From: an uncultured SAR116 cluster alpha proteobacterium
Lineage (GTDB): Bacteria; Pseudomonadota; Alphaproteobacteria; Puniceispirillales; Puniceispirillaceae
Assembly: GCA_902547925.1 (NCBI GenBank)
Contig: CACCQD010000008.1
Span: 1-64,000 of the forward strand
Direction: 5' to 3'
Length of the DNA stretch: 64,000 nt
The notes beneath the pieces are model-generated. The model had not been told where the DNA came from and did not search any database. It saw only the letters and a program-made list of their open reading frames with translations. Below, one piece after another: positions 4,589-21,374 of this stretch; positions within the stretch are counted from its first letter, which is position 1; each line of letters opens with the position of its first letter. Made by a program: the position numbers and the translations under genes.

Positions 4589-5422
4589 ATGCGTGTCATT
4601 TTTATCAGCGATCTTGATGGCACCTTGCTTGGCCATACTGATTTCAGTTTTGATGAAATCAAGGATGCGATCATCGAGCTAATCGCCGCAGGCATCAGCT
4701 TGATCCCTGCGTCAAGCAAAACCAAGCCCGAGATAGAGGATTTTTGCCGGTCGCTTGGCGTTGACCTGCCCTTTATCTGCGAAAATGGCGCAGCGCTGGT
4801 GAACAGTCATTTGCTGCACTCGCAGGACAGACAGAACGGTACCGCGGCGGACAGTCATACCCTCGGGCGTGACCCAAAAATTCTGATGGCGGCATGGCGA
4901 GACGAGATACCGAAAACCCTGCGTGAGATGTGCGCATTTCTGGATGATATGGAAACCGCCAAGCAGCAGACCATTCTTGCTCTTGAGGGGGAGGCACTTG
5001 TCCGGGCGATGGATCGCAGTCATTCAGCGCTTTTCACCTTCCATGCTACGGCGGCGGACTTCGGTGAGTTGCAGGAGCAGGCGGAGAAGGCAGGATTGAT
5101 GGTGCAGTGTGGTGGGCGTGTTTGCGCGCTCTCGGCGCAGCATGATAAGGCCAGCTATCACCATATGATCAGGCAAACAGTGACAGACGAGGGCAACGCT
5201 CCCATTCTTGTTGGTTTTGGTGATGCGCCCAATGATGTAACAATGCTCCAGAGTTGCGACATTGCCTGCGTCATTCCCCGACCTGACGGCCAGCCCCTTA
5301 TTCTTCCTAAACCACCACAGATGCTGGTTCAGGCAGAGATTGCCGCTCCGCTTGGTTGGCTTGAGAGCGCTAGAGAGGCCCTTGACTTGATTGAACAGAA
5401 ATACGGTGAGCAAAATGGGTGA
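4589..5422 (+). CDS. HAD-family sugar-3-phosphoglycerate phosphatase (MPGP/GpgP type)
   Basis: A 277-residue HAD IIB hydrolase of the mannosyl-3-phosphoglycerate phosphatase family. Catalytic motifs: SDLDGTLL (Asp8 nucleophile, Asp10 acid/base), SSKT at 42-45 and GFGDAPNDVTML (Mg-binding acids at 212 and 216). FICENGAALV is characteristic of the family. Because the next gene is a glucosyl-3-phosphoglycerate synthase, the likely substrate is glucosyl-3-phosphoglycerate, giving glucosylglycerate; a mannosyl substrate is the alternative. First gene of a three-gene operon; its stop overlaps the next start. Confidence 0.85.
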   Translation: MRVIFISDLDGTLLGHTDFSFDEIKDAIIELIAAGISLIPASSKTKPEIEDFCRSLGVDLPFICENGAALVNSHLLHSQDRQNGTAADSHTLGRDPKILMAAWRDEIPKTLREMCAFLDDMETAKQQTILALEGEALVRAMDRSHSALFTFHATAADFGELQEQAEKAGLMVQCGGRVCALSAQHDKASYHHMIRQTVTDEGNAPILVGFGDAPNDVTMLQSCDIACVIPRPDGQPLILPKPPQMLVQAEIAAPLGWLESAREALDLIEQKYGEQNG

Positions 5423-6632: not shown

Positions 6633-8389
6633 TGACTGCAGTAGAAAGCAATTACCATGAAGGGTTGATGTACCGGCTTGGGAACATCTATCAGGATGTT
6701 GACACTGCCATCCTCGGTGCGATTGCGGACCGCGTGCTTGCGCGTCTCGATGGTGCGTCAACTCCCGGCATTGAAGCCGCGTCACTGTGGGATGAGTCCA
6801 GTTGCCTGTTGATCAGCTACGCCGACAGCATTACCGATGGCCGCAAATCACCTCTTGTCTGTCTTGGCGAATTTGTGGAAACGCATTTGGATGATGTCAT
6901 TGACAGTGTGCATATCCTGCCATTTTTCCCCTCTACCGGAGATGATGGTTTCTCGGTGATGGATTACCGGGCCGTTGACCCACGACTTGGCTCTTGGAGT
7001 GATCTGACAAACATGTCGTCGTCGCGAAAGATCATGGCCGATGTCATTTTGAACCACGGCTCCAGATCCAGCGCATGGTTCAGACAGTTTGTTGATGGTG
7101 AGGCACCTGGTAGTGGCTATTTCTTGTCGGTTGATGATGATTTCGATGTTTCGCAGGTCATCCGCCCGCGTGAACATGCCCTGCTGCAACCGGTGACAAC
7201 GGTCGGAGGGGAAAAGAAAGTTTGGTGTACCTTCAGCGAGGACCAGGTTGATTTTGATTTTTCCAATCCGCTCCTGCTCGAGGAATTCATCGGCATTATT
7301 CTCGATTTTATTGATCACGGTGTTCGTATTCTGCGCCTCGATGCGGTGGGTTTTTTGTGGAAGGAAACCGGAACCACCTGTCTCAATCTGCGCCAGACAC
7401 ATGCAATCATCCAGCTGATCCGCTACATCGCCGATATTTATGATGATGAGACCGTCGTCGTCACCGAGACCAACCTGCCAAATCAGGAGAATCTGAGCTA
7501 TTTCGGTAATGGCAATGAGGCCCACTGGATTTATAATTTTTCGCTGCCACCTTTGATCCTTTACTCGTTGCTTTTCGCGGATTCCAGCATTTTGCGGCGC
7601 TGGAGCATGAGCATGCCACCGGCCCTGATGGGGACCAGCTACCTCAATTTTCTCTCCTCGCATGATGGATTTGGTATGCGACCGACCGAGGGCTTGCTTG
7701 ATGAGACGCAGCGCAAGCGCCTGTTTGATCGGTTGGAAGCGAATGGTAGCCTGTTTTCGCACCGCACCAAAGCCGATGGAACAACAAGCGTCTATGAAGC
7801 TAACACGACGTTGTTCAGTGCGCTGGAAAAAAGTGATGGTGACCCAACCGGCGCGCTGATTTCGGCACGATTTGTGGCTGCTTATGCGCTTATGTTTGGT
7901 CTGGAGGGGATTCCCGCGATTTACTTCAACAGTCTTATCTCCGCGCAAAATCACACCGACGGTGTTACCCGGTCGGGCATGAAGCGGGGGATCAACCGGC
8001 AGAAATTTGAAAAAGACTGGCTTGATGACAAGCTCTCAGATCCGATGAGCCGGGAGAGTGTCGGTCTTAAGACACTGAGAAACCTTCTGACGATCCGCAA
8101 ACAGCAACCGGCGTTTCATCCCAATGCAACGCAATTCACCCTTCAGTTGGGGGATGAACTTTTTGGCGTTTGGCGGCAAAGCCATGATCGCAAGCAAAGC
8201 ATTTTCGCGATCACCAATTTGTGTGCCAGCGAGCAGGCGCTTGATCTCTCCGCGATCAATCTGATCGACACGGAAAATTGGCATGATCTGATAACAAAAC
8301 AACAGATTGAAAGTAGGGGAGGATATCTAACGATGTCTCCCTATCAGACCGTCTGGATTACGAATCACGCGGTGCCTGCATCGCGGTGA
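6632..8389 (+). CDS. GH13 sugar phosphorylase (sucrose/glucosylglycerate phosphorylase type)
   Basis: A 585-residue alpha-amylase-family enzyme of the sucrose-phosphorylase-like group (GH13_18). The four conserved regions are present: DVILNH (137-142), RLDAV with nucleophile Asp237, VVTET with acid/base Glu279, and SSHDG with His344-Asp345. PFFPSTGDDGFSVMDY is typical of the group. The start overlaps the gpgS stop (TAATG). Members of this group split sucrose, sucrose-6-phosphate or glucosylglycerate with phosphate; given the operon, reversible phosphorolysis of glucosylglycerate to glucose-1-phosphate and glycerate is the best guess. Sucrose phosphorylase remains possible. Confidence 0.8.
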   Translation: MTAVESNYHEGLMYRLGNIYQDVDTAILGAIADRVLARLDGASTPGIEAASLWDESSCLLISYADSITDGRKSPLVCLGEFVETHLDDVIDSVHILPFFPSTGDDGFSVMDYRAVDPRLGSWSDLTNMSSSRKIMADVILNHGSRSSAWFRQFVDGEAPGSGYFLSVDDDFDVSQVIRPREHALLQPVTTVGGEKKVWCTFSEDQVDFDFSNPLLLEEFIGIILDFIDHGVRILRLDAVGFLWKETGTTCLNLRQTHAIIQLIRYIADIYDDETVVVTETNLPNQENLSYFGNGNEAHWIYNFSLPPLILYSLLFADSSILRRWSMSMPPALMGTSYLNFLSSHDGFGMRPTEGLLDETQRKRLFDRLEANGSLFSHRTKADGTTSVYEANTTLFSALEKSDGDPTGALISARFVAAYALMFGLEGIPAIYFNSLISAQNHTDGVTRSGMKRGINRQKFEKDWLDDKLSDPMSRESVGLKTLRNLLTIRKQQPAFHPNATQFTLQLGDELFGVWRQSHDRKQSIFAITNLCASEQALDLSAINLIDTENWHDLITKQQIESRGGYLTMSPYQTVWITNHAVPASR

Positions 8390-8413
8390 GCATGCGCGCG
8401 GCACGCTTTTTAA
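8390..8413 (+). terminator. Probable terminator of the glucosylglycerate operon
   Basis: An imperfect GC-rich hairpin (GCATGC facing GGCACGC) directly after the GH13 stop is followed by TTTTTAA. It overlaps the last codon of the convergent dehalogenase gene. Confidence 0.45.
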
Positions 8414-9126
8414 TACATCCTCAGGCAGCCCAGATGGTCGGCCAAATCTTCAACAGAATCTGTAATAATGGTCCAGTCGCTCGTGGCGGCGAAATCAACA
8501 CTCTGGTCGATGCCATATTCTGTCGGCCGATTGATATAGGCAGTCCGCATACCCTCATTGCGCGCCGCCGCGAGATCATCATTATGCGCCGCAGCCATCA
8601 TCACTTGTTCGGGCTCAAGGTGAAGAAGGCGTATCGCGTTCTGATAAACCGCCGGGTCGCGTTTGAACGCGCGGTGCATGTCGCTGGAGAAAATGAAATC
8701 CCATGGGATGCCGGCGCGCTTTGCCATTGTCGCCAACAACATCAGAGAGCCGTTTGATAAGGGCGAAATCATGAATTTGGACTTGATGCGGGTCAGGCCA
8801 GGCAGGCTGTCGGGCCATGGGTTCAGCCGGTGCCATGCCAGATTGAGATGAGCACGCTCATCCTCGTCAAGCATGGAAAGACCAAATTCCGGCAAAATCT
8901 CATCCAGCCTTTTGCGATGAATTAAATCGATGGACACAAATGCCTCTTTGCCTGCTGTTACGCGTGCCATACCCGGGGCATATCCTGCGCGCCACGCTCT
9001 TGCGAATGCGTCGCCGTCAAAATCGATCACTCCTTTGGAACGGGCCAGTTCCTTGCCTTCCTTGGCAATCGATGAGCGCCAATCCACAATCGTTCCAAAT
9101 GTGTCAAAAAGAACTACTTTGATCAC
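8410..9126 (-). CDS. Haloacid dehalogenase type II (HAD-like hydrolase)
   Basis: A 238-residue protein of the (S)-2-haloacid dehalogenase family. The nucleophile motif is LFDTFGTIVDW (Asp8, with Phe in the place of the second Asp of phosphatase HADs, as in dehalogenases). Then come PLSNGS (motif II), FKRDPAVYQ with the motif III Lys, and AAHNDDLAAA (motif IV). The predicted reaction is hydrolytic removal of halide from a 2-haloalkanoic acid, but many members act on other substrates. It converges with the glucosylglycerate operon. No ribosome-binding site of note. Confidence 0.85.
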   Translation of the reverse strand: MIKVVLFDTFGTIVDWRSSIAKEGKELARSKGVIDFDGDAFARAWRAGYAPGMARVTAGKEAFVSIDLIHRKRLDEILPEFGLSMLDEDERAHLNLAWHRLNPWPDSLPGLTRIKSKFMISPLSNGSLMLLATMAKRAGIPWDFIFSSDMHRAFKRDPAVYQNAIRLLHLEPEQVMMAAAHNDDLAAARNEGMRTAYINRPTEYGIDQSVDFAATSDWTIITDSVEDLADHLGCLRMY

Positions 9127-9408
9127 TTAATTCTCCGTTTTTAGCCAATAATAGGTGTTTTGCCCGCACTAGCCTGGCAGCCATCATGTTACGCATGTTT
9201 TTCGTATCCTGCCATTGGTCAGTGCTTCTTTTACGTCTGCACCGTCGGCAATAATGACTTTCACCTGTGGTGGGTGATGGCGCCTACTCTATTTTGGGTG
9301 ACATTTACACAGGTAATTTATCCGGTTTGATTTATCGGGTGCAGTTCATGGTAGGGCCATGCCCGCCACCAGCCAGTATTGCCTCGATCGCTTAATTGAG
9401 GAATACAG

Positions 9409-10002
9409 CTAAGACAACGGGCGAACGTCCGTGATGAGCCACTTCATCAAAACCTTCACAGGGCCAGGAATTTCTCGTTCACCTGATTCCCACCTGCGCA
9501 CAGTGCGACCACTTTTTACTTGCAGCACATTTGCCAACTTTTCCTGTGAAAGTCCTATCTTTTTTCGCCAATCGCGGAGCAGAGAGGGGGTGAGTTCAGT
9601 AACAATGCCGTCCTCATCAACGCAGTCAATCCCAAGTTCACGACACAAGTCGTGAATTTCATCGATGCGTTCTTGATCAACAACATTTGCACAGCCTTGG
9701 CGCCAAGTATTCAGGGTCATGCGACCATCTGCATGGACCTCTCGAATGACAACAGGGGCAACTTCGCGCTTGTGGCCGTCCTCCGGTTCCCAGACATCAA
9801 TCGCTAGCCGACTGGCATTCCCGTACATATGGCAGATTTGAGTACCCTTCTCGACAAAATCCCAAGTTCGGGCAAACAGGTTTAGCAGGAACTCATCCAT
9901 CTGAACCGATGTCATTCGTATGGCTGGATGAGGCGCCAACAGGTTGTTATGATCTGTCTCACGGTAAAATTGTGACCTTGAGTGGTAGCTAAAGTTGGTC
10001 AT
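9409..10002 (-). CDS. HTH (XRE-type) transcriptional regulator
   Basis: A 197-residue protein with an XRE-like helix-turn-helix near the C-terminus, about residues 142-188: LRDWRKKIGLSQEKLANVL then GRTVRRWESGEREIPG. The N-terminal 130 residues are not recognised; they contain a WEPEDGHKREVAPVVIRE stretch. It is divergent from nrdJ, and the 208-bp gap between them holds a pair of operator-like inverted repeats close to its own start. It is therefore a likely autoregulator that may also control nrdJ. Confidence 0.75.
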   Translation of the reverse strand: MTNFSYHSRSQFYRETDHNNLLAPHPAIRMTSVQMDEFLLNLFARTWDFVEKGTQICHMYGNASRLAIDVWEPEDGHKREVAPVVIREVHADGRMTLNTWRQGCANVVDQERIDEIHDLCRELGIDCVDEDGIVTELTPSLLRDWRKKIGLSQEKLANVLQVKSGRTVRRWESGEREIPGPVKVLMKWLITDVRPLS

Positions 10003-10041
10003 GTGACTGCATCCTTACAAAAATTCGCAACACGTCAGGAT

Positions 10042-10087
10042 AGGGCCATGTGTCCTAAAAATCAACTTGAAAGGGACATATGGCCCT
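10042..10087. promoter_or_regulatory. Operator-like inverted repeat pair
   Basis: AGGGCCATGTGTCC at 10042-10055 faces GGACATATGGCCCT at 10074-10087. The arms match as inverted copies with one mismatch in 14. Each arm is itself close to the palindrome GGnCATATGnCC. It lies 40 bp upstream of the HTH gene in the divergent gap with nrdJ, the usual place for a repressor site. Confidence 0.6.
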
Positions 10088-10153
10088 TATTTTACCTGCC
10101 GAACCCAAATGAGCTAGTCGGTCAAGTCGGCCTTTTTGGCCTGTTGAACCTGT

Positions 10154-10183
10154 TTGACTGATTGACTGTGTTCATGTTATGTT
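10154..10183 (+). promoter_or_regulatory. Possible sigma-70 promoter for nrdJ
   Basis: TTGACT at 10154-10159 and TATGTT at 10178-10183 are 18 bp apart and end 27 bp before the nrdJ start. A second TTGACT follows at 10162. Only the match to consensus supports this. Confidence 0.35.
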
Positions 10184-10210
10184 CTAATCTGCAGACAAGA
10201 GGTAATTCAA

Positions 10211-11920
10211 ATGATAAAGAACGACAGCTCGGACTACGGGCCACAGATGCGCTTGTCCCAAGAGATAGACGAGCAGAAATATCGGCAGACCGGTGAAGAC
10301 TTTTACTCGAAGTGCGTTCGCATTGCGGATGCGCTGAAAGATGACGCTGACCACTTCGAAAATTTCAAAGACGCATTGCGTCACATGCGCTTCCTCCCAG
10401 CTGGTCGTGTGCAAAACGCCATGGGAGCAGCTCGCCAGACAACAGCCTACAATTGTTTTGTCTCCGGCACGATCGAGGACAGCATGGACAGCATTATGAC
10501 CAGGGCCACTCAGGCAGCTGAGACGATGCGTAGGGGAGGCGGCATTGGTTACGACTTTAGTCGCATCCGTCCGCGAGGTGACCTAATCAAAAGCCTGGAG
10601 AGTCGCTCCAGTGGCCCTGTGAGCTTCATGGGCATCTTTGACAGCGTATGCCAGACAATTGCCTCGAGCGGCCACCGTAGAGGCGCACAGATGGGTGTGT
10701 TGCGGATCGATCACCCCGACATCGAGCAATTTATCAGTGTCAAACACAACTCAGATAAGTTGACTGGCTTCAATGTCTCGGTCGGTGTGACCGATGAGTT
10801 CATGCTGCATCTGCAAGACAAAAAGCCATTCTCACTGCGCTACGAAGGCACAGTGTACAAGGAAGTTGATCCAGTGGTCCTTTGGGACATGATCATGAGG
10901 TCAACCTGGGACTGGGCTGAGCCTGGTGTCCTGTTCATCGACCGGATCAACGAGATGAACAATCTTTACTACTGTGAGGACATCGAGGCGACCAACCCAT
11001 GCGGTGAGCAGCCTTTGCCAGCTTACGGTGCATGTTTGCTGGGGTCGTTTAACCTGCCGAAATACATCGTTGAGGGCAAATTTGACGTTGCGCAGTACAA
11101 GACAGACATAGCTGTTACCGTAAGAGCCATGGACAATGTGATCGACCGGACCATCTACCCACTGGCAGAACAGAAGTGGGAAGCAATTCAGAAGAGACGC
11201 ATGGGCCTGGGAGTGACCGGTCTAGCAAATGCCGGTGAAATGCTCGGCTACCCATACGCATCGGACAAATTCATGGCCTGGGCGAAGTCTGTTCTCTCAA
11301 TGCTGCGCGACTATTGCTACAAAGCAAGTGCCGAGCTGGCTAAAGAGAAAGGACCGTTTCCGCTGTGGGATTGGGAGAAGTACAGCAAAGGTAGGTTCAT
11401 CCAGACGCTGCCTCAGGAACTCCAGGATACGATCCAGACGACCGGAATCCGCAACAGCCATCTGACATCAATCGCACCTACTGGCACGATCAGTCTGACA
11501 GCTGACAACACCAGCTCAGGCATCGAGCCACCATTCGCTCTGTTCTACGACAGGACAATCGAAGGGTTCGACGGTCAATCGATAGAGCTTGTCGAGGATT
11601 ACGCTTACTCGAAAGGCTGGCTAGGTCGTACAGCCAATGAAATCACTGCGGACGAACACCTGGCGGTGCTGACACTGGCCTCGCAGCTGGTCGACAGCGC
11701 GGTGAGTAAGACGTGCAACGTGGGTGATGATGTCACCTACGATGAGTTCAAGCAGCTGTACTTCAAAGCCTGGAAGAGTGGCTGCAAAGGCATAACGACG
11801 TTTAGAGCGGCTGGCAAGCGATACGGAATCCTAAATGAGGTGAAACCGGACAACGACAACGAGCCAACGGCAGAAGCCTGTTTTATCAATAGTGAAACCG
11901 GGAAGAAGGAGTGTGACTAA
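10211..11920 (+). CDS. nrdJ: Adenosylcobalamin-dependent (class II) ribonucleotide reductase, short phage type
   Basis: A 569-residue class II reductase that makes deoxyribonucleotides using a cobalamin-derived radical. The thiyl-radical Cys264 sits in NPCGEQ (with Asn262 and Glu266). Cys82 (YNCFVSG) and Cys275, 11 residues after Cys264, are the expected redox pair. Cys557 and Cys568 at the C-terminus probably act in re-reduction. RRGGGIGYDFSRIRP and SIAPTGTISL are further family marks. It is shorter than most chromosomal NrdJ proteins (700 or more residues), as in many marine phages. The frame is fully open although neighbours are decayed. AAGAGGT precedes the ATG. Confidence 0.9.
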   Translation: MIKNDSSDYGPQMRLSQEIDEQKYRQTGEDFYSKCVRIADALKDDADHFENFKDALRHMRFLPAGRVQNAMGAARQTTAYNCFVSGTIEDSMDSIMTRATQAAETMRRGGGIGYDFSRIRPRGDLIKSLESRSSGPVSFMGIFDSVCQTIASSGHRRGAQMGVLRIDHPDIEQFISVKHNSDKLTGFNVSVGVTDEFMLHLQDKKPFSLRYEGTVYKEVDPVVLWDMIMRSTWDWAEPGVLFIDRINEMNNLYYCEDIEATNPCGEQPLPAYGACLLGSFNLPKYIVEGKFDVAQYKTDIAVTVRAMDNVIDRTIYPLAEQKWEAIQKRRMGLGVTGLANAGEMLGYPYASDKFMAWAKSVLSMLRDYCYKASAELAKEKGPFPLWDWEKYSKGRFIQTLPQELQDTIQTTGIRNSHLTSIAPTGTISLTADNTSSGIEPPFALFYDRTIEGFDGQSIELVEDYAYSKGWLGRTANEITADEHLAVLTLASQLVDSAVSKTCNVGDDVTYDEFKQLYFKAWKSGCKGITTFRAAGKRYGILNEVKPDNDNEPTAEACFINSETGKKECD

Positions 11921-12150
11921 TGACAACGACGCCAAATTGTTGCGGTCAAAAGATGACCCAAAAGCGGATGGATTTCTACTCATGCCAGCTTTGTAACGGT
12001 GAGGCCATCTGGTCCGCCGAGTACAACTGTTGGGAGTATGAGTGTCCGCACTCCCTCGACCCGAATTTTGGATACGGAAGGAGACTTGATGAGAGGACAA
12101 ATGTTGAAGGCTTTACAGCCTCACGCGAAAGCGAGCATCGAGCTGCATAA
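11920..12150 (+). CDS. Small Cys-rich (zinc-ribbon-like) protein
   Basis: A 76-residue protein of unknown function. Its start overlaps the nrdJ stop (TAATG) and AAGGAG lies eight bases upstream, so translation is well supported. Cysteines at 7/8, 22, 25, 37 and 42 (NCCGQKM, YSCQLCNG, NCWEYECPH) suggest a zinc ribbon. The last 20 codons overlap the next gene. A role linked to NrdJ is only inferred from the coupling. Confidence 0.65.
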   Translation: MTTTPNCCGQKMTQKRMDFYSCQLCNGEAIWSAEYNCWEYECPHSLDPNFGYGRRLDERTNVEGFTASRESEHRAA

Positions 12151-12268
12151 AGCGAGCAACGAGATATACCTGGCCAACCCTGGAGGGATTGGTGAAAACT
12201 CGGACACCCTCAAGGCTGTCCAAACTGAGCTAGACAAGATGTCTGTTCACTCTGACCGGCTCGAGTAG
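12089..12268 (+). CDS. Small phage-type protein, probably cut by an amber codon
   Basis: A 59-residue protein from the ATG at 12089, chosen because GGAAGGAG lies five bases upstream. The sequence (KALQPHAKASIELHKAS, then NPGGIGENSDTLKAVQ, then ELDKMSVHSDRLE) resembles small helical proteins seen beside reductase genes in marine podoviruses, from memory only. After DRLE a TAG stops the frame, but in-frame codons for LDYLVNSK and a second TAG follow directly, so the original protein was probably about nine residues longer. Confidence 0.65.
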   Translation: MRGQMLKALQPHAKASIELHKASNEIYLANPGGIGENSDTLKAVQTELDKMSVHSDRLE

Positions 12269-12314
12269 CTCGATTATCTGGTGAACAGCAAGTAGATTAC
12301 TGTCATGTTGATAA

Positions 12315-12629
12315 TCAGGTGTAATCATATTGGTCGATAAGAATGCCTCGATAACCAATCGTCACATTTTCAGTTTTCTGCTTCAACTCTATTTCTATGT
12401 CCTTCCATATGGGAAGACATCCATCCATGGCCTCTTTGTCTCGGTATTCAAAAACATAAGCCAACTGGTGTTGGCCCTTTCGATTCCAAACTCTTGTGCA
12501 TGAGTAGCGTGTCAGCCCAGCTTCCTTGAACCGAGGCATGAATTGGCCCTTTACAGCATCCCAGCGGTGTATGCTTAAGTCTAACTCATTTTCTGTTTTA
12601 AACGTTTGGACAGTTATGTTCATCAGCAT
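12315..12629 (-). CDS. Hypothetical protein, paralogue of its upstream neighbour
   Basis: A 104-residue protein with no recognised name. It shares a core with the next gene upstream: AGLTRYSCTRVWNRKG, then FEYRDKEAMDGCLPIWKD, then RGILIDQYD near the end. Length and the EYRD...W pattern are reminiscent of dimeric alpha/beta-barrel (ABM/NIPSNAP-like) proteins. That fold guess is inference. GGAG lies about nine bases before the ATG. It runs opposite to the nrdJ genes and is second of two tandem copies 28 bp apart. Confidence 0.6.
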   Translation of the reverse strand: MLMNITVQTFKTENELDLSIHRWDAVKGQFMPRFKEAGLTRYSCTRVWNRKGQHQLAYVFEYRDKEAMDGCLPIWKDIEIELKQKTENVTIGYRGILIDQYDYT

Positions 12630-12657
12630 TTGAGAGTCTCCAGATCATCAAGGCGAG

Positions 12658-13005
12658 CTAATCATGGCACTTTTCGGCTTCAGTAAAATCGTACAGTACA
12701 ATCCCCCGATTTGGATTAATCTTGGGAGCAAATTGAGGAACATCTTTTATCAAGTCAGACATGTAATCTTTCCAGATGGCATCACACTTAGCGAACGCAT
12801 CTTGGTCTCGGTATTCTAACCAATTTCCAATGGTAAACTTATTCTTGTTGAAAATTCTGGTCACATAGAATTTAGTCATGCCAGCCGCTCGCAATTTGCC
12901 TGCATGAGCCTCGTAACGTTGCTCAACGAGGTAAAGAAAACCTCTCATTTCACTTTCGTTCGGAAAGTCTAGAGTTGTGAAGCTAGTAATAACAGCTTGA
13001 GACAT
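12658..13005 (-). CDS. Hypothetical protein, paralogue of its downstream neighbour
   Basis: A 115-residue protein similar to the gene after it. The common core is AGMTKFYVTRIFNKNK, WLEYRDQDAFAKCDAIWKD and a late RGIVLYDF. The start has AGGAG six bases upstream. The two genes look like an old tandem duplication: the pattern of positions is conserved but many residues differ. No catalytic residues can be named. A small alpha/beta-barrel monooxygenase-like or NIPSNAP-like fold is possible. Confidence 0.65.
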   Translation of the reverse strand: MSQAVITSFTTLDFPNESEMRGFLYLVEQRYEAHAGKLRAAGMTKFYVTRIFNKNKFTIGNWLEYRDQDAFAKCDAIWKDYMSDLIKDVPQFAPKINPNRGIVLYDFTEAEKCHD

Positions 13006-13044
13006 TTCTGCTCCTACAAGTTCAACCTTTATTTTTTGATAGCC

Positions 13045-13419
13045 TCACTGGCTAATCCCATTGGGGCTTTTTTTCATCGGCCGAAATGCCAGGCTCTCTT
13101 TCTTTGCCTTCCGCTCAGACTGCAACCTGGCCAATTCTTCCTTCAAAGACGTGACATCGTCGTTTGCATTTTGCGCTGCAAGCAAGCGTTGTTCGACATC
13201 AATCATCCGACGGGTAACTTCATCGATTTCGGATTGCACCTTTGAATTGCTATTTTCAGCATGAATTTCCATGTACCGTCTGGCGTAGTAACTATATCGG
13301 CCCTCATCAGGCAGTGCATCGCTTGGGATGGAGGGCCACTTAATCCCTGGCTTCTGCTCAGGTGAGACTAGGTAGAGACCCATCTTTGCTTCTGTCTTTT
13401 TTGCCTCGGTATCTGTCAT
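13045..13419 (-). CDS. Hypothetical coiled-coil protein
   Basis: A 124-residue protein of unknown function. The N-terminal half is charged and has a GRYSYYARRYMEIHAEN stretch. From about residue 55 to 110 a heptad-rich helix (VQSEIDEVTRRMIDVEQRL, then LKEELARLQSERKAKKE) predicts a coiled coil. The C-terminus is basic. AGGT precedes the ATG by some ten bases. It is transcribed with the tiny Cys/His gene upstream unless the hairpin between them stops transcription. Confidence 0.5.
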   Translation of the reverse strand: MTDTEAKKTEAKMGLYLVSPEQKPGIKWPSIPSDALPDEGRYSYYARRYMEIHAENSNSKVQSEIDEVTRRMIDVEQRLLAAQNANDDVTSLKEELARLQSERKAKKESLAFRPMKKSPNGISQ

Positions 13420-13469
13420 TCAATTTTACCTGTTGGGTTATCTCATGCTATGAATAGAGGTAGTGGTTT

Positions 13470-13499
13470 CCCCCGTCTCTGCGGTAGCAGAAACGAGGG
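13470..13499 (-). other. Strong intergenic hairpin
   Basis: A 13-bp stem with a few G-T pairs (CCCCCGTCTCTGC against GCAGAAACGAGGG) closes a GGTA loop. It lies 10 bp after the stop of the tiny gene at 13510-13653. No T-run follows on the minus strand, so it is more likely an mRNA-stabilising or processing element than a classic terminator. Confidence 0.55.
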
Positions 13500-13509
13500 T
13501 TAAAAACCA

Positions 13510-13653
13510 TTAGGCTGCTTTAGTTGCCTTTTCAGCCTGACGTGCTTGATAAGCGGCGAGTCTTTTCTGATAATCATCTTCTGAGAGACCGTGCCAGCCA
13601 ATACATTTGCCGCTAGGCGAGCGACCGCATCCACACTTGTTTGCCTCAGCCAT
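13510..13653 (-). CDS. 47-residue protein with CDGSH-like Cys/His pattern
   Basis: A 47-residue protein found by reading the minus strand. GGGAG lies seven bases before the ATG. The N-terminus has CGCGRSPSGKCIGWHG, i.e. Cys7, Cys9, Cys17 and His21. This resembles the 3Cys-1His ligand set of CDGSH iron-sulfur proteins (C-x-C-x2-S-x3-P-x-C-D-G-x-H), but the loop is one residue shorter and Pro and Asp are missing. It could bind zinc or a [2Fe-2S] cluster. The rest is a short helix (SEDDYQKRLAAYQARQAEK). A longer frame here in another phase is a shadow. Confidence 0.65.
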   Translation of the reverse strand: MAEANKCGCGRSPSGKCIGWHGLSEDDYQKRLAAYQARQAEKATKAA

Positions 13654-13736
13654 AAAATAGCTCCCTTATTTACAATGACCCCTGGTTGAACTCCCTGAAG
13701 TGGCGTCAAATACGGGAATTGCAATGGAGGCAAACA

Positions 13737-13820
13737 ATGTTTTCCACTGAACAGAAAAATCCATGTAAAAGAAAAAGACCAGTGCCATCAAGCAATCTGG
13801 TGCACATTGGCCATTCCTAG
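13737..13820 (+). CDS. Tiny basic peptide (27 residues)
   Basis: An ATG with GGAGG six bases upstream opens a 27-codon frame ending at TAG. The peptide is basic in the middle (KNPCKRKRPVPSSN) and has no known relatives that I recognise. The ribosome-binding site is the main evidence. It is the first of three short plus-strand frames. Confidence 0.4.
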   Translation: MFSTEQKNPCKRKRPVPSSNLVHIGHS

Positions 13821-13878
13821 CCAGGTAACACCTGGGTCATAGGGTATAGGGCCGCGCCTCCCTTCTGCAGGGAGACAT

Positions 13879-14013
13879 GTGCGGCACCCGTGCAGAGAAC
13901 ATAATGATTTTGCTGCATATAAGCAACTTTTGACGGGTTCCACCCATGAGAAACCTAAAGGGCCGAACGCTCGCTATGCAGCGGCATTGGTATCAATCAA
14001 AAGCAAACGATAG
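13879..14013 (+). CDS. Small hypothetical protein (44 residues, GTG start)
   Basis: A 44-codon frame starting at GTG with GGGAG four bases upstream. The product looks protein-like: HNDFAAYKQLLTGSTHEK, then PKGPNARYAAALVSIKSKR, basic overall. Possibly a remnant of a longer gene. A small hairpin (CTCCCT/AGGGAG) covers the ribosome-binding site. Confidence 0.35.
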   Translation: MRHPCREHNDFAAYKQLLTGSTHEKPKGPNARYAAALVSIKSKR

Positions 14014-14021
14014 GTAGCGCT

Positions 14022-14108
14022 ATGTCCAAGTGGCTAATGCGTTTCTACATCGCACTGCTTGCTGCTTATTTATCGTCACCGCAACCCACACGGTGTGTGA
14101 TTGTTTGA
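14022..14108 (+). CDS. Tiny membrane peptide (28 residues)
   Basis: A 28-codon frame from ATG with AGGT eight bases before it. The N-terminal half is hydrophobic (MSKWLMRFYIALLAAYLSS), enough for one membrane span. It ends two bases before the end of the convergent broken membrane gene. No function known. Confidence 0.35.
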   Translation: MSKWLMRFYIALLAAYLSSPQPTRCVIV

Positions 14109-14109
14109 G

Positions 14110-14281
14110 CTATAACAAAAGCCAACTCATGAATCCAATCAAAAAACCACCAAGCATGAACATCCAGAGATAAATTAGGATGTTGGCAAGTTGTTGCTGC
14201 CGAAGTTTGCCATCACCAAAAATCCAGAAAAGGCTTACACCAACCACCAATAGCAAACATCACGACAAATGTTTCAATCAC
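14110..14281 (-). pseudogene. Small membrane protein with frameshift
   Basis: On the minus strand a frame beginning IETFVVMFAIGGW stops soon, while the next frame continues with VSLFWIFGDGKLRQQQ and ILIYLWMFMLGGFLIGF. Removing one T near the TTGGTGTAAGCC site joins them into one protein of about 56 residues with two membrane spans. The most likely reading is a one-base insertion in a phage-type membrane gene. The start codon (GTG at 14281) is uncertain. Confidence 0.5.
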
Positions 14282-14297
14282 ACTATTGACGTCTCTG

Positions 14298-14432
14298 TTA
14301 GTCGACTAAGGTCACCAGGGTCACACCAGCTGCAATGGCCATTAAGAGCATGGGTGTCCATCGTCGTCTTTTTCTTATGTTTGCTGAGGTCGTCATTGCG
14401 TTCATCGCGTGGATGCGAGAAAAGTCGATCAT
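14298..14432 (-). CDS. Small single-span membrane protein (44 residues)
   Basis: A 44-residue protein starting at an ATG with GGCAGGAG about seven bases upstream. The N-terminal half is polar and basic (NIRKRRRW), the C-terminal half a single membrane helix (TPMLLMAIAAGVTLVTLV). It lies directly upstream of the frameshifted membrane gene, 17 bp apart. In phages such pairs may be lysis genes, but nothing here shows that. Confidence 0.55.
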   Translation of the reverse strand: MIDFSRIHAMNAMTTSANIRKRRRWTPMLLMAIAAGVTLVTLVD

Positions 14433-14723
14433 AGTGTCTCCTGCCTTTTGTTAACGGAGGCTAGTGGCGAACTCCGGAACACATATTGTTCCACCCTGAA
14501 CGCAGGTTGGCTAGCGATAATGACTCGCAATGATGTCCCGATTTGCATCGAAGAAATCCGACCCCATCCCAATAAATTTCTGACAAATGGCCTAATATCT
14601 GACAACCGGGCATCGATATCCTAGTGAGGCTAGATCACTCGGACACCTCGATCCAACGATTTCAGTTACTTACATGGATAAACGATTAGATTGGTTCCTT
14701 ATTGATCGAAATCGACCCCCTGG

Positions 14724-15511
14724 GTGTCAAATCAGCCTCGATTTCAAAAATCCGCTACAGGTCGATCGTTGTTGTTGGAGTTAAACAAGGACGCAATCAG
14801 CAAGCAAAATAGCGCAGCTATGGTTGAGCAGCTGGCGACAATGTCTCAGCAGCGTCAAAAAATCATTGCTCGCAACTTTGCTAACCAGTTTGTGAAACCG
14901 CTATTCCATGAAATCTATCGCCTGGTCGTCGAAAATGAAGACCAGGAAAAGATTGTCGAGTTGGCCGGATCATAAGTTGTTATCGATCCCAGAACCTGAA
15001 CAGAACAGCGTGACGTGATGGTTCAACCGCGGTTTGCCTATGGCGAAAAGGAGCAGGAGGCAGCCAAGCTACTGCAAATGCATACCTGTTTAGCCAAGAT
15101 CCGTCACTTGCGACTATATACGGCCTTCAGAACAGATATCTGATGCTGAAATCGATCCTCGAGCAGCAGGGTATATTGAATGTCGAATAATATTTGATGC
15201 CCCTAGACCAGCCACCACCTCAACAGCCGGATCCTGCATAAGAGATGCAGCAACAACTGGCTATTAAGCAGTTGGAGCTGCAGGAGCGTCAGATTGCGGT
15301 CGCTGAGATGAAAGCTCAGACCGATGCCCAACAAGCAGCAGCCGAGATCGAAATGGATGCAACTAAGGCTGAAGCCAGCCATGCACTTCAGTCCGACAAC
15401 CAGGATTTGAAAGAAGCACAATTCGAACACAAGGTCCGCATCGATGAAAGCGAGTTAGCTATTTTGAAGCGCACTGATGATGTCCGTGGGATTGCATCTC
15501 CCACGGGTTAA
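14724..15511 (+). pseudogene. Decayed phage portal protein
   Basis: The translation carries the typical C-terminal half of a podovirus/P22-like portal (head-tail connector) protein: ELNKDAISKQNSAAMVEQL, SQQRQKIIARNFANQF, LFHEIYRLVVENE, then QPRFAYGEKEQEAAKL, RYLMLKSILEQQGILNVE, and a Gln-rich helical tail (QLAIKQLELQERQIAVAEM). It is interrupted by in-frame stops at 14973, 14997, 15188 and 15239 and a frameshift near 15088. The 5' half of the gene is missing. This is the clearest proof that the island was a tailed phage. Confidence 0.8.
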
Positions 15512-15596
15512 CATCATTCGAAAGTAGTACAACTATAGATTCTTTCTCAGGGCCACCCTCCCTTCGAAACTTTTTTCACGACAATGTTGCAGTGAA

Positions 15597-15788
15597 TTAA
15601 TCTGTAGTTTTGATGCCTAAGTAAAACTCAATAATTTGGAAAGATTGGGATATTGTGGGTGTTGCGTGGCTGCCTCTGACCTCACCCTCAAGAAGTGCAG
15701 ATTTAGGGACCGACCTCATATTGTTTCGAGCAAATCTGAAGGTTGGATATACAAAAAGCACGGCCACAAAAAATAAGATGCGTTTCAT
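15597..15788 (-). CDS. Small membrane-anchored or secreted protein
   Basis: A 63-residue protein. The ATG has GGAGG four to five bases upstream, the best ribosome-binding site in this part of the island. The first 20 residues (MKRILFFVAVLFVYPTFRFA) form a signal or anchor helix; the rest is polar. No family recognised. Confidence 0.5.
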   Translation of the reverse strand: MKRILFFVAVLFVYPTFRFARNNMRSVPKSALLEGEVRGSHATPTISQSFQIIEFYLGIKTTD

Positions 15789-15849
15789 AAATCCTCCAAA
15801 GCCTGTTCCTATACCTCAACAATACAACTGGAAGATGACTTTGGATTTT

Positions 15850-15875
15850 AAAAAGAAGGGCCGCCGAAGCGACCC
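15850..15875 (-). terminator. Rho-independent terminator
   Basis: On the minus strand GGGTCGC-TTCG-GCGGCCC, a seven-pair stem with a stable UUCG loop, is followed by TTCTTTTT. It lies just upstream of the 63-residue gene, so it ends a transcript coming from the right. Confidence 0.7.
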
Positions 15876-15976
15876 TCAGTTTAGGGAGGAATTATGAATG
15901 TCAAATAGTCGGCAAATCATTAACACTCCCTCATTAAAGCAAGGGTCGTGCCAAACTGTGGCAATCTTGTGAAATC

Positions 15977-16014
15977 AAAAAAGGGCCACCGTAGATTTGG
16001 CTATACGGTGGCCC
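15977..16014 (-). terminator. Strong rho-independent terminator
   Basis: Perfect 11-bp arms, GGGCCACCGTA at 15983-15993 and TACGGTGGCCC at 16004-16014, are followed on the minus strand by TTTTTTG. This is a textbook terminator for minus-strand transcription, yet no credible gene lies between it and the integrase. Confidence 0.8.
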
Positions 16015-16960
16015 AGTTCCGTCGGGTTTATCATCCCCGACTAAGGGAGAAACAAGGGTGGCTGAATCCCCCTGCTTCAATGCGTAAGAGAAAGATTCAA
16101 GTATGAATCGTAACTTACTGAACTGACTCGCAATTATCGTGCCAAAACCAAAGAAAACATTAACCTCAAGTAAAATATTAAATTTTTGTTTCAACTATAT
16201 TGAAAATACTATATTTAAATTTTAAAATTGCAAATTTGAGGAGTGGAGTATTCGTTGCCATGATTAAGGTTATAAAAAGAGGCTTTAACAGAATTAGAAG
16301 GGTTAAAGCTCAGCTACTTTGTCTTTTCTCAAATGATGGCGAGAGTTGTTACCTAAGAAGACCCAAGTCAATAGTGACCATCATCTAGTACAATCATGGG
16401 TGATATTCACTACTACTTCTACTCTTCAACAAAAGGCAACCAAAGTAACTAAGGCTTGAGAAGACTAGCTTATACCAGAAACCATAAGCCGACTTGTACC
16501 TATGGCCCTATGGCGCTGTGGTTAATAAAGTAGACGAAATTCCTAAGGCTACCACCTTCGTTAACGACCACAGTAATAACTTAATCTTAGGTACTATAGT
16601 AACTAAAGGGGGGAATAGGTGGACGATAATTTGCTCATTGTCGTTAATGTCGTCTCTTTCGTCCCATTTCGAGTGATGTACATTAGGTAATCTTGGCTGC
16701 TCTAGTCGATGATTGCAAAATCACGTTTTAAGAGTCACTGAAGCCTCTTTGGGGCGTGTCTGCTATCTTGTATATCGAAGGTGCTTACCCCCGCTCAGCG
16801 ACTCTCAAATCGCCGTTAAACGCTATCTAAGAATATGATGATAGGGGTGTGTTGTTGCTTCACGGAAAACTCTCGAAGAGACTCAAGTTTATAAGCATAT
16901 TTTTGAGGAAAAGTCAATGCCTTGCTCCAATAATTTTATTTGTTGACAATGGCTTACTTC
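16015..16960. other. AT-rich stretch without a recognised gene
   Basis: About 950 bp between the minus-strand terminator and the integrase. Short open frames on both strands (for example 16200-16388 and 16494-16676, plus) lack a convincing ribosome-binding site and protein-like composition. Given the terminator at its left end, an untranslated RNA or the 3' region of the integrase transcript is possible. Confidence 0.5.
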
Positions 16961-18222
16961 TTAGCAGCTGATTTTAGATATAGTTTCCATTTTCTGTGCC
17001 ATCGACGTTCCACCTGAGTATAACCCATAAGTCATTGTCTGCTTCTCATGCCCTAAAATGTCCGCAGCAACGCCCTCGATGACTCCCGCCTGTTCCAGAT
17101 TCGTTGTTACCGTCTTGCGGAGGCTGTGGAATACCAGCTCAGGGCCGAATCCCAGTTCCTTTTTGAGGCGACCAAACCGCTTTGATAGACCAGGTGAACG
17201 CTGGTCGTACTGGTTCTTAGCTTTCGACGATATTAGGAATCTGTCACCGCTCTCCTCGATTAGCCTGTTGACCACTGGGACAATGGCTGGATGAAGAGGC
17301 ACAAACCCCACCCCAGCCTGTGTCCTAGACTGTCTGATACGCAATGCCCTGTGGTTGTCCTCCAAGACTGCGTCCTCCGCCCTAAGGCTACACAGATCCT
17401 CTATTCTAGCTCCTGTGTATAAAGAAAGCTGGGTGAGGTCGGATAACACACTGTCCTTGCCAGCAGAGACAGCCTTCATTAGCTCAAGACACTCGGCATT
17501 GCTAAAGCCGTGCCTGACTATGGACTTGCCTTCTCCAGTCTTGCGAATTGTATGGCCAGCAAAAGGTGATGGGTCACTAACGACCTGCATGGAGAGCAGG
17601 TAGGTCCAGAAAGAGTTAAGAGAACCCAAGCGTCTTTTGACCGACTTTGCACCAACATCCTCTGGCGAGGAACGCCTTAACCACTCACCTACAAGCTTGG
17701 CATCTGGGATAAGGGCTGTTTCCTCCTTGTGGAAGGCAACAACATCTCTTCGCATCTGGTCCACGGTCTTGCTTTTGAGGCTACCCATCCGTCTACATAC
17801 TCTTCCAGCATAATTATCTGGCCTGAGGCGATGCCGTAGAAAGTTTTTGCTGTCTCGTTGAGATGAGTGTCTTCCACCTCGTGAAAGTCTCTGCCTCCCA
17901 GAATGATATCCTCCATCTCATCCTCGATTATGACGCCCTTGATGAATTCATCTTCATCATTTTTCTGCCCGTCTTTATCTAATGCTTTCTCGAGAGCCTT
18001 TGCACGGGCCATGACGCAATCTTGTTTGGCCTCTTCAATCAGCTTTTTCCATTTGAGAACCAGAGGGGCTGCAAGAAGCTCAGCTTCCTTGCGGTTTGAA
18101 GTGCCAAGGTATTTCTTGAACTCGTTCTTTCCAAAAATGGCACGTAGCTTTTTTGGGATAACAAGACGTGCTGAATAGGTTTGGCCCCTGCGCACCACAA
18201 AGCTCATCGACCACGACCTCAT
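16961..18222 (-). pseudogene. Tyrosine integrase broken by a frameshift
   Basis: The gene reads in two frames. The N-terminal part (18222-17689) has the arm/core-binding start FVVRRGQTYSARLVIPKKL and a YLGTSNRKEAELLA stretch, as in many phage integrases. The C-terminal part (to 16961) has the catalytic domain: GARIEDLCSL (Arg), HSLRKTVTT (His, Arg), ILGHEKQT (His) and GLYSGG (Tyr nucleophile). The frames join near 17785 in the TGGGT of VDGW/GSLKSK, where one base seems lost. Either a mutation or a sequencing error. The gene begins 94 bp from the tRNA-Ser 3' end. Confidence 0.85.
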
Positions 18223-18232
18223 TTATACTCAT

Positions 18233-18254
18233 TTGGTACAAACCTTGGTACAAA
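18233..18254. repeat. Direct repeat upstream of the integrase
   Basis: TTGGTACAAA occurs at 18233-18242 and again at 18245-18254, a 12-bp period, between the integrase start and tRNA-Ser. The position suits integrase arm-type or excisionase binding sites. Confidence 0.55.
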
Positions 18255-18315
18255 ATAGACCGAAGCCATTTCCAAAAGTACAATGAAATCAATATATAGG
18301 AAAGACGTAAATTAA

Positions 18316-18405
18316 TGGCGGAGAGGGTGGGATTCGAACCCACGAAGGGCTCGCACCCTTGCCGGTTTTCAAGACCGGTGCATTCAACCGCTCTGCCACC
18401 TCTCC
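18316..18405 (-). tRNA. tRNA-Ser (UGA)
   Basis: A 90-nt class II tRNA on the minus strand. Acceptor stem GGAGAGG pairs with CCTCTCC; the anticodon arm is CCGGT-CTTGAAA-ACCGG with anticodon TGA; a variable arm (AGGGTGCGAGCCCT) follows, then the T arm TGGGTTCGAATCCCA. Discriminator G and CCA are encoded. It is the apparent attachment site of the prophage. Confidence 0.95.
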
Positions 18406-18591
18406 AATGCTCATTATTGAACGGTATCCGGTGTCTACCGAAACCTGTGGTGAAGGTCAATACCTCTGCACTCAATTTAATTATGCCAAAGAAATCTCAA
18501 GGATTTTCAGCGAAGAAATCAATTCCTGGCGGGCTGCAATCCATCGTTACCCATGTCAGTGCCATGCTTGACCGTCACTGACACCAAAAGG

Positions 18592-19185
18592 TTAGGCAAG
18601 GGTCATACAGGCGGCGCGCATCTCCTCTAGCGCGGCAGTGAGCGATCCGTTGAAATCAATCGCTCAGCAGCTGGCGAGGCGGGCCTCCAAAGGAAAACTC
18701 TGAGCAGCACCATCAATCGTTGACCACGCCACACAAAAATTAGTCGCCAATCCTGCCATGGTCAGGTGAGTACATCCAACCTCACGCAAATATTCTGCAA
18801 GTCCTGTCTGCGTTACTTTGTCATTCTCAAAAAAGGCGGAATAGGAATCAACCTCCGGGTTCATCCCCTTGCGGATGATTGCAGACGCCAGAGATGTGTC
18901 GGGGCCCGCGTGAAAGGCGGTGACTTCACTGCCTTGAATACAATGATCTGGCAATAGAGCCTGAGGCCCATAGGGCATTTCGACCATTTCCAGTGGCGTC
19001 TTTCCCGGATGTGACGAGGCAAAGCTGCTATGGGCGGCTAGATGCCAATCCTGCGTCAGCATTACAAGATGATGAGCGGACATCATGTCATTGATTGATG
19101 ACATGATGGTATCGCCATCCTCCAATGCCCATGCCCCGCCGGGACAGAAATCATTCCGGGGGTCAATTACATCGAGACAATTCAT
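18592..19185 (-). pseudogene. pncA: Nicotinamidase/pyrazinamidase with internal stop
   Basis: An isochorismatase-fold nicotinamidase that would convert nicotinamide to nicotinate for NAD salvage. Catalytic residues are present: Asp8 (DVIDPRNDF), the Lys of IIRKGMN and the Cys of LATNFCVAW; the metal site is in TQDWHLAAHSSF. The frame stops at TGA (18664) after 173 codons, but the same frame then reads AIDFNGSLTAALEEM up to TAA at 18592, the normal C-terminus of PncA, where Arg (CGA) usually precedes AID. So a CGA to TGA change is likely. The truncated form keeps the active site and might work in part. Confidence 0.75.
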
Positions 19186-19622
19186 TCCGTCTTCCTTGCT
19201 GTTATCATGTTGTTATTTCGCTAAGGGACAATGCTAGCGTCTTTTTGGCATCAAACAAAGCCGCACCGCAAGTCCGGTCACGCCCCGTGAAGCGCCCGGC
19301 AACGAATGGTCGTGTGATATCATGGCAAAAACCGTCCGGCCAAAGTTCACCTTTTCGCGTTTTTGGCAACTGTGGTACATTTAGAAAATATGGAGTCTGC
19401 GGCCTCTGTGGTAAACATACCTATCTCCCGTTCAAGATTGTATGGTCCTTTGTTGCGGCTCCATGTTTGCCTCCGTATCCGGGCGCTATGCAAAAGTCTT
19501 TTCAAACTGCACAGCGTTGTGTGATGACGTTGCACGCCATAGGGTTAAGGTAGCGTCATTTAAGGCCCTCGCCATTACCGGCGGGTGCAGGGTAACAATT
19601 TACACCAAATAAGGTTGTGTCG
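19186..19622. other. Intergenic region upstream of the RND operon
   Basis: 437 bp with no credible gene on either strand. It must contain the promoters of pncA (leftward) and of the efflux operon (rightward); I see no clear operator. Confidence 0.5.
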
Positions 19623-21374
19623 ATGAGTGTTTCATATTTATTCCAATTTTTCAGGTTTGTAGGGGGGTGCGTTGGTCGCTGGTCAGTTTTCAGTCTGCTC
19701 AGCACCGTGATGATGGTCGCTGCATCTCTTGCCCACGCCCAGGAATATGGTGGGCGCACAGCATCGGTGGAAACAGCGCAGGCAAAACAGGAAGTGCTCT
19801 CACGTTTTACCGACGTACAGGGCCGCATGGTTTCTGGCAATTCCTCAGCTATCACTGCCGTGACCAACGGTGTTGTTAACCTGGCGACATTGCGGATTGG
19901 CGATATGGTGGAGCAGGGACAGCTGATCGCCACGCAGGACAGCAAACCACTCCGTCGTCAGCTGGCGCTGCTTGAAATAAGGGTGGCAGATGCAAAGATT
20001 CGCCTTGCCGAGGCCACGCAGAGCGATCGCGATGAGACTGATCGGCAACAGCGTCAGCGTGAAAATCTACGCTTGCGCCTCACAGAAGCGAATGCCCGCA
20101 TTAACGAGCTTGAGGCCGATTTGCGCCATGAGGCTGATCAGTTGGCTGTGAATAAACAGCAATTGGAACTGCTTGAGGGTAAAGCGAAGCGGGCGCAGAA
20201 TTTGGCTGACCGCAACACACTGCCAAGCGAGGCCGCGGAAACCGCGCTGGGTGCCAGTTTGAACGCCCGTCAACAGATGCTCGCTCGTGAGGCAACAATC
20301 ACTGGAAAAAGGGCGCAACTCGCCAACGCTCGGTCTGCTGTTGCGCGAACACGATTGGAAATTGACCAGCTTTTGCGCGATATCGCCTCCCCGGACGGGT
20401 TTACAATCGCAAGAATTGAGGCTGAGATTCGCCAGTTTGAGTTAGATATAACGGATCTGCGCGCTGATATCCGCGAAACAAATCTTGTTGCACCGCGTGA
20501 TGGCCAGTTGATTTTTTTGGCAGAGCTTCAACAGGGTTACAGCCGCAAAGGTGACGTCATTGCCCGCGTGTTGGCAATGGACGAATTCGAGGTCGAGGCT
20601 GAGATTCCCGTTGCCTATATGGGATTTGTCGGCGCTGCCGATAACATTCGGTCATTCGACCTCGAAGGCCAAATGATTATGCTGAAACCAAGAGCCGTCC
20701 TGCCGGTGCAAAATGCGCGCACCGGAACGCAGACTGTGCGGTTTAGGATCAAGGGTGATCTTGCCCCCGCGGCACGCGCAGATAATGCGGTCATTGTGCT
20801 GAAAGTGCCAACCTCGAGCCCGGCACCGGTTGTCACGGTGCTGAAAGACGCTGTACTGCCGGTTGTCGGCGGGCACATAGTGTATGTCGCCGAGGAGGGC
20901 ATTGCTATCAAGAAACGTATCCGGCTTGGTGATGCCTTCGGCGATAGTTTTGTCGTCCTGCAGGGGCTGGAGGCGGGGGCTGATGTAATTGTCCGTGGTA
21001 ATGAGGCGCTGAACGATGGCAAGAAAATCAAGATTGGGGGCGCACCTGTCGTTAAAAAACCCACGGGTCCGGGAGGGGAGGTATGGAGTTTGAACTGGAC
21101 AACAAGCCGGGGACCGGCGTCAGCCAATTTGGTGCTTGGCACTGAAAAATCGCTGTTCAATGACGAGGAAATCTCCGTCGTGCGCGCCGGTGAAGATATC
21201 AACTTCATCGGCAAGCTGTTCCTGCCATTCGGTGTTCTCGACCTCGATTTCAACGGCACCATTGAGGGCAACAATATGGCGGGCGAGGTCACGCTGCGTG
21301 GTCTGCCCGGGGGGCGTGAGCCGACGCTTGATTTCACCGGCAAAAAGGACCCCGGTACAAAGGATGCTGACTGA
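19623..21374 (+). CDS. RND efflux periplasmic adaptor (membrane fusion protein) with extra C-terminal domain
   Basis: A 583-residue adaptor linking an RND pump to the outer membrane. Signal peptide to about residue 42 (MMVAASLAHAQ). Then a half-lipoyl domain (NGVVNLATLRIGDMVEQGQ), a long alpha-hairpin coiled coil (about 110-270), the second lipoyl half (NLVAPRDGQLIFLAELQQG), barrel and membrane-proximal domains up to about 465. The last 110 residues (after VVKKPTGPGGEVWSLNW) are beta-rich and not part of usual adaptors. The ATG was chosen over a GTG two codons earlier. Its stop overlaps the pump start. Confidence 0.9.
   Translation: MSVSYLFQFFRFVGGCVGRWSVFSLLSTVMMVAASLAHAQEYGGRTASVETAQAKQEVLSRFTDVQGRMVSGNSSAITAVTNGVVNLATLRIGDMVEQGQLIATQDSKPLRRQLALLEIRVADAKIRLAEATQSDRDETDRQQRQRENLRLRLTEANARINELEADLRHEADQLAVNKQQLELLEGKAKRAQNLADRNTLPSEAAETALGASLNARQQMLAREATITGKRAQLANARSAVARTRLEIDQLLRDIASPDGFTIARIEAEIRQFELDITDLRADIRETNLVAPRDGQLIFLAELQQGYSRKGDVIARVLAMDEFEVEAEIPVAYMGFVGAADNIRSFDLEGQMIMLKPRAVLPVQNARTGTQTVRFRIKGDLAPAARADNAVIVLKVPTSSPAPVVTVLKDAVLPVVGGHIVYVAEEGIAIKKRIRLGDAFGDSFVVLQGLEAGADVIVRGNEALNDGKKIKIGGAPVVKKPTGPGGEVWSLNWTTSRGPASANLVLGTEKSLFNDEEISVVRAGEDINFIGKLFLPFGVLDLDFNGTIEGNNMAGEVTLRGLPGGREPTLDFTGKKDPGTKDAD

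Follow-up and report, generated by a model that had tools for sequence, protein, structure and literature searches.

What keeps a ribonucleotide reductase gene open inside a prophage that is falling apart? The question is raised by a locus of an uncultured SAR116 cluster alphaproteobacterium (G000), whose assembly is fragmented (1.67 Mb, 57.6% complete); the window analysed here is the whole stretch of 64,000 nucleotides taken from it. The answer that we consider probable is a domesticated prophage gene: the locus is the relic of a T7-like podovirus in which selection keeps nrdJ and its neighbouring HTH gene as an accessory second reductase.

Alignment to the empty site in a congener (G003, contig C17; genome 96% complete) delimited the prophage relic, hereafter the island, as 8.9 kb at 9374-18313 between a HAD-hydrolase gene and tRNA-Ser, an extent slightly exceeding the 9409-18315 of the sequence-only reading. 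The island is absent from G003, where the HAD-hydrolase gene and tRNA-Ser lie side by side. The host flanks are 94% and 91% identical to G003, the homology spanning 4847-9388 and 18314-21705, and this alignment on both sides rules out mis-binning or a chimera. The attachment site is tRNA-Ser(tga) (18316-18405, minus strand; ARAGORN), which adjoins the HAD gene in G003. An attR copy of the tRNA end, and with it a duplicated attachment site, was not found in the window, indicating that this end of the island has been deleted; att-like tRNA-Asn copies are present at the relic sites of two further congeners, G001 and G002. The integrase beside the tRNA gene and the unoccupied site in G003 together identify a tRNA-integrated prophage relic.

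Decay is visible across the island. The tyrosine integrase (16961-18222, minus strand; PF00589 6e-18 and PF20172 2e-14) is split by one frameshift near 17790, possibly an assembly error, into two frames at 16961-17788 and 17689-18222. The portal-protein relic (14757-15508, plus strand; PF23899 SU10_portal) covers residues 452-702 of 702 in two frames with four in-frame stops; its N-terminal ~450 residues are gone and the last ~250 are 67-68% identical to the portal of a related prophage in G010, a closed chromosome of 2,753,527 bases from the same family. None of the other structural genes of that intact prophage was recognisable in the window. The left end of the island lies inside the tail of the gene that lies ahead of nrdJ in free phages, presumably of the DUF3310 family; its last 11 codons are left (9380-9412, plus strand; C-L-D-R-L-I-E-E-Y-S-stop, compare DRLIEEYDA in L004 787-1059), the remainder is deleted, and a pseudogene of the same type with 5 stops occupies this place in G001. 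The sequence-only reading had described a decaying prophage at tRNA-Ser with broken integrase and portal genes and its structural genes gone, and this description holds, the portal remnant being the only structural gene still recognisable.

The phage-type nrdJ (10211-11920, plus strand) is open and encodes a class II (adenosylcobalamin) ribonucleotide reductase of 569 aa that matches TIGR02504 with 532.8 bits (1e-159; curated cut-off 400 bits). The protein is related to Thermotoga maritima NrdJ (PDB 1xje, 3e-69), of the NDP-type family, with which it shares the barrel domain and an aligned thiyl cysteine and redox cysteine pair. Its residues C82, N262, C264, E266 and C275 align with the catalytic residues C134, N320, C322, E324 and C333 of 1xje, and all five are invariant among 19 relatives. 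As expected of a reductase without a separate radical-generating subunit, no class I small subunit (PF00268) was found in G000 or in any of the 61 genomes searched. Judged by family and active site, the phage-type NrdJ is a class II enzyme. An ATP-cone domain was not detected in it. In the NrdJ tree the window protein, the proteins of L004 and L007 (both viral contigs) and the G001 and G002 copies form one clade (support 100/98), and the G010 copy falls in another, a placement that points to phage origin and several captures. The earlier description of the gene as a phage-derived class II reductase is supported.

Upstream of nrdJ and divergent from it lies the gene of an HTH regulator of 197 aa (9409-10002, minus strand; PF01381 HTH_3 2e-6); a single-sequence model of its fold was too poor to use (mean pLDDT 46). 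The gene is intact in G000 and G001 and open in G002, where it is cut by the contig end; among 136 genomes of the order it was found only in these three, with pairwise dN/dS of 0.09-0.16, and it had no homologues among the viral contigs or phage records. The two genes share a 208-bp intergenic region (10003-10210) containing an operator-like inverted repeat, AGGGCCATGTGTCC-N18-GGACATATGGCCCT (10042-10087), whose arms are the sole exact matches to AGGGCCATRTGTCC in the genome; in G001 the right arm is conserved and the left arm partly so. A wider HTH regulon beyond nrdJ was rejected, since the remaining arm matches carry one mismatch and occur near the control level. A promoter-like site, TTGACT-18-TATGTT (10154-10183, plus strand), is a weak candidate from a consensus scan that performed at chance level (1 found against 2.4 expected), and the TTGAC upstream of nrdJ recurs in G001.

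The same pattern was found in two congeners. Each of G000, G001 and G002 has just one intact nrdJ of the phage type, with a divergent HTH gene as its partner; the relics occupy two tRNA sites. In G001 the intact gene lies between hisIE and tRNA-Asn (the C4 relic), and in G002 nrdJ is on contig C19 near tRNA-Ser and the piece of the HTH gene beside hisIE on contig C17; each reaches a contig end, so that their adjacency in G002 is inferred. The phage-type nrdJ is absent from G003 and from G004 (73% complete), which shows that it is dispensable, and the second, truncated nrdJ copy with stops in G001 (C21), present beside the intact one, shows that unselected copies do decay. For comparison, the G010 prophage spans ~40 kb with an integrase, polymerases, nrdJ, a thyX-type gene, portal, terminase and tail genes, several of them named by reading rather than by profile. 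When the first set of about 20 (21) proteins of this prophage was tested against the three relics, NrdJ alone survived at full length, and with a wider phage protein set the other genes appeared as short fragments only. The G010 element itself (C1:384960-424600) is nearly complete, has a T7-type polymerase by reading and is possibly still active.

The surviving genes were compared with their decayed surroundings. Across the three relics, ~17 in-frame stops occur in ~1,160 codons of phage remnants against none in 1,704 nrdJ codons (conditional P ~2e-7; the count took in remnants long enough to recognise, and the stops cluster by gene). Between G001 and G002, nrdJ shows 49 nonsynonymous and 130 synonymous differences and a dN/dS of 0.078, within the 0.04-0.10 of phage pairs. 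In codon branch models, in which the nrdJ branches include time spent inside phages, the background (phage) omega was 0.067-0.069; the G001 and G002 tips gave 0.080 (2ΔlnL 5.3 against 0.12 and 228 against 1.0), and G000 gave 0.113 with an upper limit of about 0.19, a value of 1.0 being rejected at 2ΔlnL 28.9. G000 has a long branch with a somewhat elevated omega (2ΔlnL 4.3), compatible with brief neutral evolution following integration. Expressed as neutral time by a manual calculation, these values set a ceiling of about 0.01 substitutions per site for nrdJ of G001 and G002, and correspond to a best value of about 0.03 with an upper bound of about 0.05 for G000; the portal relic, likewise converted by hand, gave about 0.125 (roughly 0.03-0.3), and the stop densities in the relic neighbours imply roughly 0.08-0.2. 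The G000 figures for nrdJ and its surroundings overlap at the edge, so that the window alone is moderate evidence. We conclude that nrdJ is held under purifying selection amid decay, with strong support in G001 and G002 and moderate support in the window taken alone. The selective retention that the sequence-only reading had proposed is thereby borne out (nrdJ omega of 0.08-0.11, the phages having 0.067, and three copies free of stops), and the relaxed selection that it had named as counter-evidence does not appear in the dN/dS analysis.

For the small genes that follow nrdJ the case is less uniform. Directly 3' of it lie orf76, encoding a small Cys-rich protein (11920-12150, plus strand) with no match in the phage records, and orf59, a small phage-family gene of 59 aa (12089-12268, plus strand) that has no Pfam match and by eye resembles small ORFs in G001 C50 and G004 C75. 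That nrdJ and its two followers are open is correct for the window; orf76 is also open in G001, but it has a premature stop in G002 and a dN/dS of 0.26-0.35, so the retention does not extend to it throughout.

Luck and youth might also account for the pattern, if the prophage were recent and decay had struck the portal and integrase first, nrdJ being merely spared so far. For the window alone this reading has some room: four stops in 255 relic codons against none in 569 nrdJ codons is a contrast of P ~0.009, the integrase carries the single, possibly artefactual frameshift, 12% of simulation runs left nrdJ without a stop at 0.03 neutral substitutions per site, and the absence of the island from G003, at a hisIE dS of 0.24 from G000, means that the island may be young. 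We nevertheless regard it as unlikely, because two further relics, one of them certainly at another site, repeat the pattern, and because the G001-G002 differences and the branch model confine the neutral time of nrdJ far below that of its neighbours.

Descent of the relics from one old, vertically inherited island is doubtful. For G000 and G001 it was rejected on the different integration sites; for G001 and G002 it is unlikely, since the nrdJ dS of 0.49 contrasts with about 2 in host genes such as hisF. The low nrdJ dS together with the different sites argues for separate phage integrations or horizontal exchange. Between G000 and either of the other two, synonymous sites of nrdJ are saturated, while the HTH gene (dS 0.64-0.68) and orf76 (dS 0.51-0.53) are not, which indicates that nrdJ was swapped within conserved flanks at least once. 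This last contrast would also be expected if infecting relatives of the phage kept replacing nrdJ by homologous recombination, with no host need for the gene. The exchange could, however, predate integration and have taken place in the phage; recombination would have to reach nrdJ and the HTH gene yet spare orf76 and the DUF3310-type gene, and no HTH-bearing phage was found among the viral contigs or phage records, all of which makes continual refreshing from outside improbable.

We give little credence to the locus being a compact mobile element, or a phage satellite, whose working genes are the HTH gene, nrdJ and integrase. A comparable arrangement in three species, at tRNA-Ser and at tRNA-Asn, an intact integrase in G002 and non-coding blocks in common would suit such an element; the last include a non-coding relic at 15840-16460, 87% identical to G001 C12, a relic that also adjoins tRNA-Ser, and 82% identical to G002 C19. 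On the other hand, the integrase is frameshifted in G000 and was not found in the G001 C4 relic, the left end begins inside a phage gene remnant, no attR was found in G000, and there are portal, endolysin and tail-fibre fragments with stops.

The search for another reductase that the sequence-only reading had suggested returned a chromosomal one, which is the other half of its stated counter-evidence. G000 also encodes a bacterial class II NrdJ, open over 931 aa to the contig end and 1,210-1,227 aa long in congeners, and the reductase query was matched in 58 of the 61 genomes searched. The host enzyme of ~1,200 aa has a TSCPD domain and a Ribonuc_red_2_N extension, both lacking in the 569-aa phage-type form, which is much shorter than is usual in the class II NrdJ family. 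The idea that the phage gene is the host's B12-dependent route to deoxynucleotides, class II as its product is by family and active site, is accordingly refuted as regards the sole or main route, since nearly all relatives searched have the bacterial enzyme, and the phage-type gene is dispensed with in G003 and G004. From its sequence, the phage-type NrdJ is a second, compact B12-dependent reductase, redundant with the host class II enzyme.

Returning to domestication, the evidence fits the following course. A temperate podovirus of the T7-like kind, with a class II ribonucleotide reductase among its genes, integrated at tRNA-Ser, and the prophage then decayed through deletion, frameshift and nonsense mutation. 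Selection has since kept nrdJ and the divergent HTH gene as an accessory second reductase, a step that has statistical support once the congeners are included and moderate support from the window alone. The compact NrdJ would make dNTPs with the adenosylcobalamin that the cell already requires and, having no ATP-cone, would probably escape shut-off by dATP. The HTH protein would repress nrdJ through the inverted repeat in the promoter region that the two genes share, and nrdJ might be switched on when extra dNTPs help, for example in repair or regrowth. The arrangement suggests that nrdJ is likely a repressed, inducible extra reductase. More tentatively, such captures may recur in the genus, the class II reductases of temperate T7-like phages being retained, each under an HTH repressor and operator of its own, to supply dNTPs on induction outside the feedback control of the bacterial reductase, possibly for survival of DNA damage or for nucleotide competition with infecting phages.

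The window gene was set beside known systems. Class II reductases are common in lytic marine podoviruses (PMC6775973), and the B12-dependent enzyme of the window resembles those of cobaviruses and the roseophages CRP-9 and CRP-738, with ~60% protein identity to CRP-9/CRP-738 and up to 80% to viral contigs. Cobaviruses are described as lytic and as lacking signs of temperate life, whereas the source phage of the window had an integrase; its relative in G010 has, by reading of the sequence, a T7-type RNA polymerase, and cobavirus SIO1 is without one (PMC6775973). On these two features a cobavirus identity was rejected. A survey of 173 putative Rhodobacteraceae prophages reported the absence of the RNR genes that are familiar from roseophages (PMC8224337), which suggests that a temperate carrier and a retained copy are uncommon. 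Domesticated ('grounded') prophage genes likewise stay under purifying selection as the prophage decays (PMC6379469, PMC8987985); unlike the reviewed cases, the window gene encodes an enzyme of nucleotide metabolism, whose essential function the host already covers. No direct report of a domesticated prophage reductase was found in a literature search that most subscription journals lay outside.

Rhodobacterales provide a precedent for two class II enzymes in one genome. Their second, short class II reductase (NF005401 / PRK06948 type, 'ribonucleotide reductase-like protein'; the NF005401 label is provisional) is 45-47% identical to the window protein and occurs together with an NrdJ of >1,200 aa in three of the Rhodobacterales genomes checked; the prophage-relic setting is a feature of the window gene. 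Short class II genes besides the >1,200-aa one were seen at L087, L111, L123 and other Rhodobacterales loci.

Reductases encoded by phages rank among the most abundant genes in the sea and are regarded as tools of lytic infection. Here, in three cases within a single genus, the host seems to have kept such an enzyme after the death of the phage, in addition to the essential one that it already has. The locus thus offers a tractable example of viral nucleotide metabolism handed to bacteria, in which the benefit of a second B12-dependent reductase becomes a directly testable question.

The island has further contents. Two intact tandem DUF6974 genes (104 and 115 aa; 12315-13005, minus strand; PF22388 8e-12 and 1e-11) are probably cargo; the G002 relic has a distant homologue in this position. 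The adjacent orf124 (13045-13419, minus strand) is 62% identical to the gene next to the broken nrdJ of G001 C21. Searches of the island for RNA families gave the tRNA and weak matches only, and PADLOC gave no convincing match to a defence function. The genus holds many more relics with pieces of the same phage family, several of them located at tRNA genes or close by (G001 C12, C21 and C50; G000 C6 and C14; G004 C75 and C30). Furthermore, a non-coding phage element of ~65-70 nt (window 14529-14602) is conserved at 75-88% identity across the phage group, in contigs L004, L006, L007 and L075 and the G010 prophage, and more weakly in L016. It has the form TCCCGATTTG...AAATTTCT...GCCTAATGTC, with copies at L004 4379-4447, L007 8497-8573 and G010 C1:406524-406589; it lies between the replication and tail-fibre regions, is more conserved than coding DNA in this phage group and is perhaps a regulatory, origin or packaging site.
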